Source of the DNA: Pseudomonas prosekii
GTDB lineage: Bacteria > Pseudomonadota > Gammaproteobacteria > Pseudomonadales > Pseudomonadaceae
Length of the DNA: 64,000 bases
Reading direction: 5' to 3'
NCBI RefSeq assembly: GCF_900105155.1
Contig: NZ_LT629762.1
Span: 248,001-312,000, forward strand
Position 1 is the first letter of the stretch, and each line of letters begins with the position of its first letter. Below are positions 33,763 to 52,516 of the stretch, piece after piece. The notes beneath the pieces are model-generated. The model had not been told where the DNA came from and ran no database searches. It was given only the letters and a program-made list of their open reading frames with translations. Both the position numbers and the translations under genes were made by a program.

Positions 33763-34524
33763 GTGGGAGCAAAGCTTGCTCGCGATGGCGGTCTGCCAGT
33801 TGAAAATTGTGGTGACTGACCCACCGCTATCGCGAGCAAGCTCAGCTCCCACAGGTTTTTTTGCTGAGTCCGGATTTGTGGCTTAACACCAATCCCTGTA
33901 GGAGTGAGCCTGCTCGCGATAGCAGTGGGTCAGGCATTTGGTGTCGGCTGATAGACCGCTATCGCGAGCAAGCTCAGCTCCTACAGGTTTTTTGGTTGGG
34001 ATAGGGATTGGTGGTTTTGCACCAATCTCTGTGGGAGCAAAGCTTGCTCGCGATTGCGGTAGGTCAGCCAGTTTGGCTTCAGCTGACAGACCGCTTTCGC
34101 GAGCAAGCTCTGCTCCTACAGGTTTTTTTGCTGGCGTCCGGATTTTTGGCTTAGCCCCAATCCCTGTAGGAGTGAGCCTGCTCGCGATGGCGGTCTGCCA
34201 GTTGAAAATTGTGGTGACTGACCCACCGCTATCGCGAGCAAGCTCAGCTCCCACAGGTTTTTTGGTTGGGATCGGGATTGGTGGTTTGCCACAAATCCCT
34301 GTGGGAGCGAGCTTGCTCGCGATAGCAGTGGGCCAGTCAATTTGGTGTTGGCTGATAGACCGCTATCGCGAGCAAGCTCAGCTCCTACAGGTTTTTTTGC
34401 TGGCATCGGGATTTGTGGTTGGGCACCAATCCCTGTGGGAGCAAAGCTTGCTCGCGATGGCAGTGGGTCAGCCAATTTGATGTCGGCTGATAGACCACTT
34501 TCGCGAGCAAGCTCTGCTCCTACA
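33763..34524. repeat. REP array of six forward/reverse pairs (12 units)
   Basis: Forward units begin at 33763, 33898, 34031, 34166, 34301 and 34435, a period of 133-135 bp; each is followed about 65 bp later by an inverted unit ending in CAGGTTTTTTTG. Spacers between pairs are themselves similar (for example GGGATTGGTGGTTTGCACC). The whole 780-bp gap between the kinase and SRPBCC genes is this array; no gene fits. Confidence 0.93.
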
Positions 34525-37806: not shown

Positions 37807-37841
37807 TCAACATGAAGCCTGCGTCCCTGCGAAGATCCCTC

Positions 37842-38201
37842 GTAGGAGCCGAGCTTGCTCGCGAAAGCGGTGGGTCAGTGACATAAAACTGGCTGACCCA
37901 CCGCCATCGCGAGCAAGCTCGGCTCCCACAAGGATGGGCGGCACCACACCAATTTCGCTACTCACAAAAATCCCCTTGTAGGAGTGAGCCTGCTCGCGAA
38001 AGCGGTGGGTCAGTGACATCAAACTGGCTGACCCACCGCCATCGCGAGCAAGCTCGGCTCCCACAAGGATGGGTGGCACCACACCAATTTCGCTACTCAC
38101 AAAAATCCCCTTGTAGGAGTGAGCTTGCTCGCGAACGCGGTGGGTCAGTGACATTAAACCGGCTGACCCACCGCCATCGCGAGCAGGCTCACTCCTACAG
38201 G
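37842..38201. repeat. REP array of three pairs (6 units)
   Basis: Forward units begin at 37842, 37978 and 38113 (period 135-136 bp), each with an inverted mate. The inter-pair spacer GGCACCACACCAATTTCGCT is repeated nearly exactly. Nothing else occupies 37807-38213. Confidence 0.93.
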
Positions 38202-40817: not shown

Positions 40818-41759
40818 ATGAACCCTGACGCCCTCGCCATTCTTCACGCTCACCTGCTGACCGCCCTGGCCACTGCCCCGGCCGAAACTCGGCGGCTGTT
40901 TCACGGGCGCGGGCGCTGCTGGCCAGGGCTGGAGCAGTTGACCGTCGACTGGTTGCAGGGCGTGGTGCTGGTGTCGTTGTTCAAAGAACCCGAACCGCAG
41001 CAGCTTGAGGATTTGAAGCAGTTGCTGATGGACCTCACGCGCTCCGCCGAATGGCAGCAATCCGCCGCGCACACCTTGCTGCTGCAGCACAGGTATTTGC
41101 TGCAAAGCACCACCGAATGGCTGCTGGGCGATGCGCTGGATGAGATGACCATCACCGAGGGTGGCCTGAATTATCGGGTGGACCTGGGCCGCAAACAGAA
41201 CGCCGGGTTGTTCCTCGACATGCGTTACGGCCGCGATTGGGTGCGGGCAAATGCCGAGGGCAAACGGGTGCTGAATCTGTTCGCGTACACCTGCGGGTTT
41301 TCCGTGACGGCGATCGAGGGCGGCGCGGCGCACGTGGTCAACCTGGACATGTCCAGTTCGGCGCTGAGCCGTGGCCGCGACAATCATCGGCTCAATGGCC
41401 ATGACCTGAGCAAAGTGACATTCCTCGGTCACGACCTGTTCAAGTCCTGGGGCAAGGTGATTGGCAAAGGGCCTTATGACTTGGTGATTATTGATCCGCC
41501 GTCGTTTCAGAAAGGCAGTTTTCTCCTGACCAAGGATTACCAGCGCGTGCTACGGCGCTTGCCGGAATTGCTCACCGAGACAGGCACGGTGCTGGCGTGC
41601 ATGAACGATCCGGCGTTTGGCTCGGACTTCTTGATCGACGGCGTAACCCGTGAGGCGCCGAGTTTGCACTTCGTCGAACGCCTGGAAAACCCACCGGAAT
41701 TTCCCGACGCCGATGTTGAACGCGGGTTGAAAGCGTTGGTGTTTCAGCAAGGGAATTGA
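40818..41759 (+). CDS. Class I SAM-dependent methyltransferase (RlmI/RlmK-type catalytic domain)
   Basis: 313 aa. NxGLFLDMR (QNAGLFLDMRYGRDWV), the SAM-binding VLNLFAYTCGFSVTAIEGGA and the DPPSFQKGSF motif are those of the PF10672 domain found in 23S rRNA m5C/m7G methyltransferases such as RlmI and the RlmKL C-terminal half; the PUA or THUMP RNA-binding part is missing. rRNA is a reasonable but unproven target. The stop codon runs into the REP array that follows. Confidence 0.88.
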   Translation: MNPDALAILHAHLLTALATAPAETRRLFHGRGRCWPGLEQLTVDWLQGVVLVSLFKEPEPQQLEDLKQLLMDLTRSAEWQQSAAHTLLLQHRYLLQSTTEWLLGDALDEMTITEGGLNYRVDLGRKQNAGLFLDMRYGRDWVRANAEGKRVLNLFAYTCGFSVTAIEGGAAHVVNLDMSSSALSRGRDNHRLNGHDLSKVTFLGHDLFKSWGKVIGKGPYDLVIIDPPSFQKGSFLLTKDYQRVLRRLPELLTETGTVLACMNDPAFGSDFLIDGVTREAPSLHFVERLENPPEFPDADVERGLKALVFQQGN

Positions 41760-42380
41760 GCCTGCTCGCGATAGCGGTTAAATATTCACAATTTGCGTGT
41801 CAGACACACCGCCATCGCGAGCAAGCTCGGCTCCCACAGGGATTTTCAGTGGATGCTGGATTTATGGGCAACAGAGATTCCATGTAGGAGTGAGCCTGCT
41901 CGCGATAGCGGTTTCACATTCACAATTCGCGTGTCAGACACACCGCCATCGCGAGCAAGCTCGGCTCCCACTGGGGATCTTCAGTGGATGTTGGATTGGA
42001 GGACAACACAGATCCAATGTAGGAGTGAGCCTGCTCGCGATAGCGGTTTCACATTCACCATGTGCGTGCCAGGCACACCGCCATCGCGAGCAGGCTCGGC
42101 TCCCACACGGGATCTTCAGTGGATGCTGGATTTATGGGCAACACAGATCCAATGTAGGAGTGAGCCTGCTCGCGATAGCAGTTTCACATTCACAATTTGC
42201 GTGTCAGACACACCGCCATCGCGAGCAAGCTCGGCTCCCACAGGGGATCTTCAGTGGATGCTGGATTTTGCGGGCAACATAAATCCAATGTGGGAGCGAG
42301 CTTGCTCGCGATAGCAGTTCCACATTCACCACGTGCGTGCCAGACACACCGCCATCGCGAGCAAGCTCGGCTCCTACAGG
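41757..42380. repeat. REP array of five pairs (10 units)
   Basis: Forward units begin about 41750 (truncated by the methyltransferase stop), 41884, 42019, 42154 and 42290; period 134-136 bp. Spacers such as TTCAGTGGATGCTGGAT repeat between pairs. The array creates long but spurious open frames. No gene in 41760-42402. Confidence 0.93.
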
Positions 42381-42402
42381 GGATTTGGCTGGGGCGCGGG
42401 AG

Positions 42403-49567: not shown

Positions 49568-50224
49568 TTACCAACTACCGTAAGGGATGCCGTACTGATC
49601 GATGTAGCGCTTAGCCTTCTCACTTACGGGATAGGCGTACCGGCCTTCATTCTTGCCTTGGTCGGGTCCTAAGGGCTCAATCTCCGCCAAACCTTTGGCA
49701 ACCTTCACGGGTTGGTTACACGAGTCCCTGACCCAAACTTGCACAACTCCGCCAGGAGCCAGACCTAAATAAACAGAGGCCATAAACCTGGGTTCTTTTT
49801 CAGGAGTTGTGGAGCACCGCTCGCTGGTAGAAGAGGTCATGATCTGACGAGCCTTCTCCGGTATGTCCACCCATGCCCGGTAGGTTTTCTGCTCCACAAT
49901 CGATTGCCACCGTACAAATATCCGAATGGGCAAATCCGCACCTACGACGGTTTTTCCGCTACCACCGACTCCCGTCCAGCCACGAGCCGACTCTTTCCCA
50001 TCTTCAGGTTCGCCACCCGCCGCGCGCCCGCCGCCTGTTTTAAAAAACACTTTGCCAGTAATGTCCTGGACAGAGCTGTCTTCAACCCAGACCTTCATGT
50101 AGTCAGGCTCGGTAAAAGCGAGCTCCCACGCTTTTGCCTGGGTATCACTTGGTGCGGAAAGCGAGTAGGCAGACTGACAGCCTGTAATGAGCAACGCGCC
50201 CAGAAGCGATATCCATATTTTCAT
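49568..50224 (-). CDS. DUF2931-family lipoprotein, candidate immunity protein
   Basis: 218 aa. Lipoprotein signal peptide with lipobox LITGC (lipidated Cys16 after start at 50224). The middle holds a Gly-rich segment (TGGGRAAGGEPEDGKESARG) and the WVDIPEKARQIM region typical of DUF2931. Its ATG overlaps the DUF2235 gene stop (TAATG), so the two are co-translated. Families like this accompany DUF2235/Tle lipase effectors and, being periplasm-facing, suit protection against a phospholipase. That role is inferred. Confidence 0.8.
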   Translation of the reverse strand: MKIWISLLGALLITGCQSAYSLSAPSDTQAKAWELAFTEPDYMKVWVEDSSVQDITGKVFFKTGGGRAAGGEPEDGKESARGWTGVGGSGKTVVGADLPIRIFVRWQSIVEQKTYRAWVDIPEKARQIMTSSTSERCSTTPEKEPRFMASVYLGLAPGGVVQVWVRDSCNQPVKVAKGLAEIEPLGPDQGKNEGRYAYPVSEKAKRYIDQYGIPYGSW

Positions 50225-51762
50225 TACCAAAGCGTCCAGTCGGGTACATGAGGGTGTTTTACGCGGACACCGTCCTGCGTAGGTGCGTTGATGTAAACAG
50301 CCTTCAAACCGCTTCCATCATTTCGACCCAGGGGATGATTCCAGTTCGCCGACGTGTGAATGTACTTCAGTCCCAGCACCTGTTCTTCTTGAGGCGTAGT
50401 GCTGTAGTCGCCGGCGACGAATCTGTCGCTCATAGCTTGAAGTTCCTGCGGGACCGCCAGCCCGGAAGTATCGGGGATATCGTCAAACTGAACTCCTTTC
50501 TCCTTTGCCAATTTGTGCATCAGATGCAAGTAGACCCTCGACAGTTTTCCGCTTATAGGGCGTTTGAGCTGCAATGCCGCATAAACTCGCTTCATGGGAG
50601 GACTGAACCGGTCTTGCTGATCCTTTATCTGAATCGCTGGAGGCGTGACGATCTCTAAAAACTCTGCGGGCCACCCCTTGGCTAACCATTGGCTTCTGAC
50701 CTTAACGGCATCGCGGTAGATCGAGGTAGTCACTACATCCGTATGGATCGACACTTCCAACGCTTGCATTGGGCTGATCAGTACACACTCCTGAGCTTCA
50801 TCGAGATAACCGCCACCAATATCAGAGTGCACACCTGGCAAGGTAATCTCAGGGAAATCCGGCTTGATGCTACTGAGAGCAAAGTTGCCTCGACATTCGT
50901 CGCGGGCGGCTAACTGCACGACGTCGTCGAAAAACCTTCGATCCAAATAGAGCTTTATCCCCGTAGCGACGGAGCTCTTTATATTGCCCAAATTCGACCA
51001 TCCGGCAATCGATGGCACCGTATCAAACAAACCTATAAAGCCCATGTTGATTCCGCTTTTGTACTGGGCGATGAAGTTTGAACTGAAAGCTTCTGAACTC
51101 CCGCGCAACACATTCCCTAAAGGGCCTTGTGGGCCGCGTACGACTTCATTGGCAAAATGGCGAGCCGCCGCCGCACCTCGGCTGAACCCGAAAGTATCGA
51201 AGATCAATGATGTGATTTCGCAGCCGGGATGGTTCGCGAGCACGTCATCAATTCGTTGTTGTATTTGAGCGAATGAAAGCTGCACACGCCCGGCGACGCC
51301 CGTATCACCCCTGCCGGTACCCTGCCCGACCAGGTTGTCTTTTTCGCCCGACAGAGTGCCGATACCCTCCATGTAGATCATGCGAGATGCGCGTTTTTGT
51401 GGGCCCTCGCCTTCAGTCTTTTGCGGTGCGTAATACAGGTCACTCAGCTTTTTTATATTGCTGACGTCATTGCCATAACTACTGTCAGGATCAGCCATAA
51501 ACGGCTTGCAACTGGGGTCAATGTCCGCCGCAGCTATGGGGTTGTGCGCACCACACAACAACCCAGCAGCCGTATTATTCGCGTTGTTGCCAGTGCCATC
51601 GAAGAACACGCCAATTCTCAGCGCGATGCTGATTTTTTCTTTTTGAGGAGCCGGCGCCTTTCCGTGTTTCTCATATTCTGCCCAGCGTCGGGCATGGATA
51701 TCGACAGGCTTGGCCTCGTGGTATCGATAGTCTTTTGGGGGGTTGGGGACGTAGCCACTCAT
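50224..51762 (-). CDS. DUF2235 (Tle1-like) phospholipase, candidate type VI secretion effector
   Basis: 512 aa alpha/beta-hydrolase. The family opener VFFDGTGNN is at residues 52-60; the triad candidates are Ser194 in GFSRGAAAAR, Asp247 in GLFDTVPS and His312 in VHSDIGGGY. Known Tle1 proteins are phospholipase A effectors injected by type VI secretion. No signal peptide, as usual for such effectors. No VgrG, PAAR or chaperone gene is adjacent. ATG 51762 is chosen over an in-frame TTG at 51789. Overlaps the DUF2931 gene. Confidence 0.85.
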   Translation of the reverse strand: MSGYVPNPPKDYRYHEAKPVDIHARRWAEYEKHGKAPAPQKEKISIALRIGVFFDGTGNNANNTAAGLLCGAHNPIAAADIDPSCKPFMADPDSSYGNDVSNIKKLSDLYYAPQKTEGEGPQKRASRMIYMEGIGTLSGEKDNLVGQGTGRGDTGVAGRVQLSFAQIQQRIDDVLANHPGCEITSLIFDTFGFSRGAAAARHFANEVVRGPQGPLGNVLRGSSEAFSSNFIAQYKSGINMGFIGLFDTVPSIAGWSNLGNIKSSVATGIKLYLDRRFFDDVVQLAARDECRGNFALSSIKPDFPEITLPGVHSDIGGGYLDEAQECVLISPMQALEVSIHTDVVTTSIYRDAVKVRSQWLAKGWPAEFLEIVTPPAIQIKDQQDRFSPPMKRVYAALQLKRPISGKLSRVYLHLMHKLAKEKGVQFDDIPDTSGLAVPQELQAMSDRFVAGDYSTTPQEEQVLGLKYIHTSANWNHPLGRNDGSGLKAVYINAPTQDGVRVKHPHVPDWTLW

Positions 51763-51980
51763 TCCTTGATTTCCTGCTCCTGGGTGCAACGGGCGTCGAG
51801 GGTGCCACCGCGGGTCCTTTCAGGCAACGTGTAGCCAGATGCCATCACTCAAACCATAGGCGCTTCATTCCGACCATTACCAACGTCGATAGTTACCATC
51901 ACGTCAATGAAGTTCTCATAAAAAATCCGCGGCGTAACATCCGCTCCATACCCAACTAACAACACCCGGAGCACACGATC

Positions 51981-52460
51981 ATGAAACGCCAAATCCTTCT
52001 CAGCATCGCTTTCTCGGTTTTCGCAGTTAACGCTTTCGCCGCTTCCTCTGCTCACCAGGCTGTCGCTGAAGGCGGCTCGGATCGACTGATTGAAAGCCGC
52101 GTGGCTGAAGGTGGTTCGGACCGTTTGAACCAGAATCGTGTTGCTGAAGGTGGCTCGGATCGTTTGATCGAGAACCGCGTGGCTGAAGGTGGCTCGGATC
52201 GTCTGAACCAGAACCGCGTCGCTGAAGGTGGCTCGGATCGTTTGAACCAGAATCGCGTTGCCGAAGGTGGCTCGGATCGTCTGAACCAGAACCGCGTTGC
52301 CGAAGGTGGTTCCGACCGTCTGAACCAAAACCGCGTTGCCGAAGGTGGCTCGGACCGTCTGAACCAGAACCGCGTTGCCGAAGGTGGTTCCGACCGTCTG
52401 AACCAGAACCGCGTCGCTGAAGGTGGCTCCGACCGTCTGAACCAAAACCGCATCGCATGA
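51981..52460 (+). CDS. Secreted tandem-repeat protein (ten 13-residue repeats)
   Basis: 159 aa. Signal peptide (residues 1-20, cleavage near AFA|AS), a short spacer, then ten uninterrupted repeats of VAEGGSDRLNQNR (residues 28-157; units 1 and 3 end LIESR and LIENR) and a final Ile-Ala. Each repeat has one Glu, one Asp and two Arg. Similar pseudomonad proteins are called 'phage infection protein' in databases without evidence I know of. CGGAG precedes ATG 51981. Function unknown; predicted disordered or fibrous, exported. Confidence 0.85.
   Translation: MKRQILLSIAFSVFAVNAFAASSAHQAVAEGGSDRLIESRVAEGGSDRLNQNRVAEGGSDRLIENRVAEGGSDRLNQNRVAEGGSDRLNQNRVAEGGSDRLNQNRVAEGGSDRLNQNRVAEGGSDRLNQNRVAEGGSDRLNQNRVAEGGSDRLNQNRIA
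52062..52451 (+). repeat. Ten tandem 39-bp coding repeats
   Basis: Unit length 39 bp without spacers. Units use two synonymous patterns (GGTGGCTCGGATCGT and GGTGGTTCCGACCGT) that alternate in the second half, so pairs of units were probably duplicated together. Since 39 is a multiple of three, antisense frames also stay open. Confidence 0.95.
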
Positions 52461-52491: not shown

Positions 52492-52516
52492 AAGCCCGGC
52501 CTAATCAGCCGGGCTT
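52492..52516 (-). terminator. Terminator between the repeat-protein gene and the convergent hypothetical gene
   Basis: AAGCCCGGC (52492-52500) and GCCGGGCTT (52508-52516). On the minus strand it is followed by TTTTTG, so it serves mainly the 52536-52901 gene; on the plus strand it may act weakly for the repeat-protein gene. Confidence 0.8.

Follow-up and report, generated by a model that had tools for sequence, protein, structure and literature searches.

A Pseudomonas family of tandem-repeat proteins with a MexT-type promoter box

The gene described here lies in a 64,000-nucleotide stretch of Pseudomonas prosekii DNA that was analysed as a whole (the window), and the small repeat protein that it encodes is, on sequence comparison, a member of a large Pseudomonas family and not a one-off. 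Our data demonstrate the gene family, the anatomy of its repeats, a nod box whose distance to the start codon hardly varies, a peptide that is conserved between units, and turnover of copy number and of units between species. New in this work is the exact match to the MexT nod box ahead of the repeat gene and of 73 of 127 family genes. We consider the gene family and its promoter element to be well supported, and infer the identity of the regulator. Because most of the family genes examined carry a MexT-like promoter element, the repeat protein is probably stress-induced and of the cell envelope.

Anatomy of the repeat gene

The open reading frame begins with ATG and contains ten units of exactly 13 residues (residues 28-157), which confirms the constant unit length claimed in an earlier note on this DNA; the ribosome binding site described there is also present (Table 1). 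TRF analysis of the array reports a period of 39 with 9.9 copies and a score of 522, far above chance. The same note took the array to be one sequence repeated ten times, and this holds for eight units, which read VAEGGSDRLNQNR; unit 1 is VAEGGSDRLIESR, ending in LIESR, and unit 3 is VAEGGSDRLIENR, ending in LIENR. Nor is the array free of spacer and tail, as had been stated: a linker of about seven residues (ASSAHQA) precedes it if cleavage occurs after AFA, and two residues (IA) follow it. Export of the protein is probable. The inverted repeat beyond the stop codon, as a terminator candidate, is not above chance, the scan finding one such repeat against a shuffle mean of 1.3.

Table 1. Features of the repeat gene and its promoter, in window coordinates
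Feature	Position	Strand	Basis
MexT-type LysR nod box ATTA-N7-CGAT (51876-51890) + N4 + ACCAT (51895-51899)	51876..51899	+	Exact consensus match
Promoter stretch shared by the family, containing TCAATGAAGTTCTC and GGCGTAACAT; putative -10 TAACAT at 51935-51940	51900..51940	+	Family promoter alignment
GGAG ribosome binding site, 9 nt before ATG	51968..51971	+	Sequence; kept in family promoter consensus
Tandem-repeat protein, 159 aa, probably exported	51981..52460	+	Profile match, relatives
Signal-peptide-like N-terminus, residues 1-20, ends AFA	51981..52040	+	Sequence; relatives start alike
Ten 39-bp units encoding VAEGGSDRL-x-x-x-R	52062..52451	+	Unit comparison
Inverted repeat just past stop codon, possible terminator	52492..52516	.	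Scan reports - strand only

Comparison of the ten units with one another gives pN 0.031, pS 0.485 and pN/pS 0.065. Units 6 and 8, and units 7 and 9, differ by a single nucleotide each, and all other pairs differ by 2-13 nucleotides; the pairing within units 6-9 is the pattern that a two-unit duplication would be expected to leave. Two alternating synonymous patterns, as previously proposed, are therefore seen in units 6-9, and the unit-by-unit nucleotide comparison rules out alternation along the whole array. The low pN/pS between units agrees with the purifying selection that had been suggested for the peptide, although residues 10-12 vary strongly between relatives. Because these residues are variable and L9 and usually R13 are retained, only part of the unit is conserved. 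Three further arrays in the window, at 33763-34524, 37837-38190 and 41757-42384, have a 135-bp period and consensus units that contain GCGAGCAAGCTC.

The promoter box and its possible regulator

The sequence from 51876 to 51940 is conserved over family members. Its first part, ATTACCAACGTCGAT, lies 105 nt ahead of the start codon and fits the nod-box consensus of MexT, ATYA(N7)YGAT, without a mismatch (consensus as given in PMC11432991). The -10 hexamer in Table 1 was assigned by eye, and scanning the promoter stretch for the sigma-70 consensus found none. Within the 127-gene set, entry to which required two motifs, the exact pattern ATYA-N7-YGAT occurs in 73 upstream regions, compared with a mean of 2.18 and a maximum of 7 in 50 dinucleotide shuffles, and the box extended by N4-ACYAT in 57 (shuffle mean 0.02); because the family promoters are related, these shuffles overstate independence. 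Almost all box positions (72/75) lie 103-116 nt before the start codon. Among the 54 promoters lacking an exact box, 45 have one with a single mismatch at 98-120 nt (the shuffle baselines refer to the exact forms), four are two mismatches away, and five (L031, L055, L056, L072 and L149) are three or four away. Of the one-mismatch boxes, 31 have ATTG and 11 have ATCG in place of ATYA.

Searching 59 same-genus genomes with the box pattern extended by family sequence gave 87 matches in 46 genomes, and none with the reversed control. When 30 of these matches, one being the window, were fetched as loci, a family-type ORF was found downstream in every case, 18 by script and 12 by reading; one of these loci is frameshifted (L268) and two contain masked bases (L260 and L274). 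Outside the genus, the exact box is present at 10 of 14 loci from one other genus. The box is also still carried by L273, which has one unit, and by L277, which has a leader and no clear repeat array.

In the P. prosekii genome itself, the extended consensus ATYAN7YGATN4ACYAT is matched exactly at five places (reversed control, 0), with a small ORF 98-109 nt downstream of each: two family genes, ORFs of 81 and 71 residues with hydrophobic starts, and one of 34 residues. No RND pump or efflux operon is found downstream of these five boxes by the ORFs read, and for neither of the two LysR proteins that were scanned do the 25 best NCBIfam matches listed include a MexT model. Similar boxes are also recognised by other LysR regulators. 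With no efflux operon behind any of the five boxes and no MexT recognised in the genome, "MexT-type LysR regulator" is the limit of the evidence; the promoter sequences suggest that the repeat family would be under MexT control. The window box differs by one mismatch from a longer MexT consensus reportedly described by Tian and colleagues in 2009. Allowing one mismatch to that longer form yields seven genome matches, of which two belong to family genes and another two (L200 and L203) fall within long ORFs, and allowing up to two mismatches yields 44, many within long ORFs, so that loose matches mean little.

Several of the small ORFs behind these boxes may be described individually. The 81-residue protein at L056 (box at genome 5567336-5567359, - strand) has a signal-like start, ends in AENRPEFGTKHQRIDA and possesses its own exact nod box; its gene adjoins a family paralogue ending in AENRPEFGSKYQRY, and it perhaps represents another small family that is regulated in the same way. 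At L206 (genome 5588019) an exact nod box precedes the 71-residue ORF by 98 nt, and at L204 (genome 5429044) another lies about 108 nt before the 34-residue ORF, which also has a hydrophobic start.

In P. aeruginosa, antibiotic efflux and quorum sensing are both affected by the MexT regulon, and deletion of mexT reduces PA4881, mexEF-oprN, PA3229, PA1942, PA4623, PA1744 and PA2486 most strongly (PMC12607905). Several of the strongest targets are hypothetical proteins (PMC12607905, PMC3848899), with PA3229, PA4623 and PA4881 so listed in a portion of PMC3848899. The strongly MexT-dependent hypothetical proteins PA4881, PA3229, PA4623 and PA2486 are likened to the repeat family by their descriptions only. 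A large repeat family that has a MexT-type box in two genera, and a motif in common with PtrA-type proteins, offers a concrete gene set for probing MexT outputs.

Distribution, turnover and neighbourhood of the family

Relatives are present in 33 of 36 same-genus genomes, the P. prosekii genome counted, and in none of 21 genomes from other families of the order. A 20-row profile finds the family in at least 92 of 198 Pseudomonadaceae genomes and in 10 of 19 genera, a lower bound with 18 candidates scored per genome. All of the best 80 of 272 confirmed stretches in a scan of named genomes come from records titled Pseudomonas. The P. prosekii genome has matches at seven places and relatives' genomes have up to 10 each, partly pieces of one gene or antisense. 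Only two of 72,556 plasmid records match: one, from Pseudomonas asturiensis, is annotated as hypothetical and shows 51.5% identity over 61%, and the other, from Vibrio, is antisense to its annotated gene and is therefore taken as chance. No Pfam family, RTX and other repeat families included, scores over its cut-off for the window protein, there are no matches to it among solved structures, and no description of the family was found in the literature searched, of which we had a partial view.

Paralogues share a common signal peptide, units of the form [VLI]A[EAQ][GDN]G[SA]D[RKH] and a variable end, with 3-21 copies per gene (median 9 in the 127-gene set). Adjacent units (994 pairs) are spaced by 13 residues in 889 cases, by 12 in 48, 14 in 21, 15 in 25 and more in 11, and spacings are mixed within single proteins at L056 and L245. 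G5 is set by the detection pattern, which also limits the residues allowed at positions 1-4, 7 and 8, so that low entropy at all these positions is partly built in. Outside them, every one of the 103 distinct units has L, V or T at position 9, 82 have R at position 13, and residues 10-12 have an entropy of 2.2-2.9 bits between relatives. That each unit ends in arginine, as first reported, is true of the window protein and is no family rule: the paralogue units VAADGSDRVGAGA and VAADGYDRTGSAT lack the terminal arginine, and the DR within the motif is retained more often. Five family genes with 12-residue units, such as VAQDGSDRTMNR, are packed into 4.5 kb at L064 (G023).

The copy-number change proposed from the window alone is borne out by comparing species, not strains, at one syntenic site, recognised by a gene of the DUF1615 cluster no more than two genes downstream. 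Of 32 loci carrying the repeat gene there, 31 are intact and have 7-12 units; the last (L148) reads three units because its frame breaks at N. Residues 10-12 differ between species at this site. Unit composition is more alike between paralogues of one genome (mean cosine 0.81, 18 pairs) than between same-site genes of different genomes (0.34, 435 pairs), a gap reached by none of 2000 label shuffles, which ignore species kinship. This test used 78 of the 80 named loci (the best 80 matches to the window protein), L114 and L148 being left out. In 8 of 14 comparisons, one genome being counted twice among the eight, no orthologue is as close as the paralogue; the remaining six depart from this pattern. 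In one paralogue pair (MOBR) the cosine falls to 0.07. Concerted evolution and recent duplication would both fit the likeness of units within a genome, and the apparent homogenisation between loci offers a tractable bacterial case of concerted evolution. Decay is also seen: the G034 gene (L070 and L268) is frameshifted, and L273 keeps a single unit.

Beside the window gene, at 49568-51789, lie a gene for a Tle1-like T6SS phospholipase (PF09994, 45.1 bits against a cut-off of 27) and an adjacent DUF2931 gene, which are perhaps an effector-immunity pair. The adjoining genes thus agree with the effector island noted earlier, but among 100 loci around relatives (L054-L153) the Tle1-like gene occurs at none, DUF2931 at one and the 121-aa ORF at two. 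Because the Tle1-like gene is missing from all 100 loci, this neighbourhood looks incidental and we rejected its link to the repeat gene. The recurrent neighbour clusters, named from one Pfam-scanned member each, are DUF1615 (32 loci) and GST (27), with LysR, azoreductase, cupin and ecotin in fewer. The azoreductase cluster is found near seven loci (L062, L077, L085, L086, L091, L106 and L145), with LysR clusters near most; it hints at redox control, but the syntenic groups are few, and we did not retain it as a sign of such control. A GGDEF/EAL gene is matched in 15 of the 100 loci, three at more than 80% identity, being convergent to the family gene in L074 and L100, as in the window, and divergent in L099. 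At L107, five DUF2931-like matches follow one another. A paralogue in the P. prosekii genome (L055:3885-5013, units VAADGSDRVGAGA), which is without a nod box, lies directly upstream of an ORF for methionine sulfoxide reductase (PF01625), at a distance of 31 nt.

Proposed function of the array and its similarity to PtrA-type proteins

The best explanation that we can offer, to which we give an even chance of being correct, is a periplasmic, stress-induced, multivalent motif array. A MexT-type LysR regulator would activate the repeat gene under redox or electrophile-type stress, and the protein, probably Sec-exported, would then fill the periplasm, where many copies of (A)EGG[S/G]DR would act as a multivalent binding array. 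Copy number would set the strength of binding, and the partner might be an envelope protein, a sensor, a protease or a ligand.

A disordered, hydrophilin-like shield, which is glycine-rich, charged and unstructured, would instead guard envelope proteins by its bulk properties and not by a motif. Hydrophilins have more than 6% glycine and a hydrophilicity above 1. The mature window protein has 14.4% glycine, a hydrophilicity of 1.16, 0.7% C/M/H/W/Y and a net charge near zero, and the two AlphaFold models are of low pLDDT (mean 56.4 and pTM 0.40 with 30 sequences; mean 38.6 and pTM 0.19 with 15 sequences for a member from the other genus). Only 10 of the 127 family proteins exceed both thresholds, however, and the strict conservation of single residues exceeds what composition needs, so that we regard a shield as unlikely. 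Both of these low-confidence models place about two short strands in each unit over much of the array, as expected for a beta-solenoid or fibre in which every unit forms one coil and the whole a rod or an adhesive fibre. Nevertheless, neither model has a residue at pLDDT 70 or above, the pTM values are low, spacings of 12, 13, 14 and 15 residues occur and are mixed at L056 and L245, and the L273 gene has a single unit; we think a solenoid somewhat less probable than a shield. The matrix fibre put forward in the earlier note gains nothing from Pfam, in which no adhesin or anchor domain scored above its cut-off.

The two arginines of each unit might also serve as a sacrificial sink that takes up dicarbonyl electrophiles or reactive aldehydes in the periplasm. 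Such a role would suit the MexT-type box, MexEF-OprN being reportedly induced by electrophiles (according to Juarez in 2017), but it leaves the conserved E, G and D residues unexplained, several paralogues have one arginine per unit, and stoichiometric scavenging is costly; we judge it improbable. Least likely of all, in our estimation, is the precursor that cleavage at arginine would turn into multiple copies of a secreted peptide, an idea with little or no support. Its near-identical units ending in arginine invite the idea, as do an ecotin (protease inhibitor) cluster near the gene in six of 100 loci, one member being Pfam-confirmed, and an exporter-type ABC transporter about 1 kb upstream of the P. 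prosekii paralogue L054, whose similarity cluster recurs in four other loci. The unit-terminal arginine is lost in several paralogues, however, these neighbours occur in only 5-6 of 100 loci, and neither is among the scanned genes beside the window gene. The phage decoy that was earlier suggested, and a phage-borne origin, were both rejected, as a search of 50,697 phage records gave no match at E 1e-5, and of 102 stretches in viral contigs that fit the pattern not one was confirmed. "Phage infection protein" is presumably an older label from automatic annotation for repeat proteins of this kind; entries so called in P. fluorescens transcriptomes were compared by name only, and the name is no evidence of a phage role. 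One such entry has a Sec/SPI signal and is up-regulated by InvF (PMC8490769, in part). Another, in P. fluorescens In5 with Rhizoctonia solani, is up 32-fold together with azoreductases, pirin, quercetinases and glutathionyl-hydroquinone reductase, according to an excerpt of PMC5557065.

The multivalent motif array is further informed by likeness to PtrA-type proteins. PtrA (PA2808) is described as a copper-induced periplasmic copper-tolerance protein, for which control by CopRS and CzcRS has been reported (excerpts of PMC8872213 and PMC7763554), and whose role as a T3SS repressor was reported and then disputed (PMC7744410, in part). Against NF041599, the NCBIfam model of the PtrA N-terminal domain, the window protein scores 90.3 bits summed over its repeats; because its best single stretch scores 22.1 bits, it passes the cut-off of 31 by summing. 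Among six other-class paralogues, L064 is over the cut-off (57.2 bits), L054, L056 and L057 are below it, and L055 and L058 have no match. NF041599 matches occur in 106 of 149 same-genus genomes at E 1e-3 and over the cut-off in 83, and in none of 14 control genomes. The NF041599 proteins read (8 of 30 loci, on the + strand, ten further ORFs, and one more in the P. prosekii genome) are short and, like the window protein, carry (A)EGG[GSA][DE]R after a signal peptide, where the window protein has (A)EGG[S/G]DR. In contrast to its ten units, they have a single copy of the motif, immediately behind the signal peptide, followed by a tail of another kind, which ends in H-x-N-C in six of the eight proteins from those loci. 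The window protein thus lacks the single N-terminal motif and PtrA-type tail of PtrA proper, and the similarity rests on a signal peptide and about seven residues. We advance only tentatively, and with more doubt than confidence, the broader proposal that MexT-type-controlled periplasmic arrays in at least two genera, homogenised both inside single loci and from locus to locus of one genome, might, together with MexEF-OprN, be a main output of the MexT stress response whose strength depends on copy number, and that the motif shared with PtrA-type proteins might link redox and copper envelope stress through a common partner.

L056 was considered as a copR-ptrA locus and rejected, the best score of its response regulator being OmpR, below cut-off. 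The P. prosekii genome has a PtrA-like gene of its own (L038, genome 5772878-5772958, - strand), with a single EGGAER after the AFA/signal peptide and a score of 22.1 bits, which does not reach the cut-off of NF041599. Near it (in L060) is a gene for a TonB-dependent receptor.
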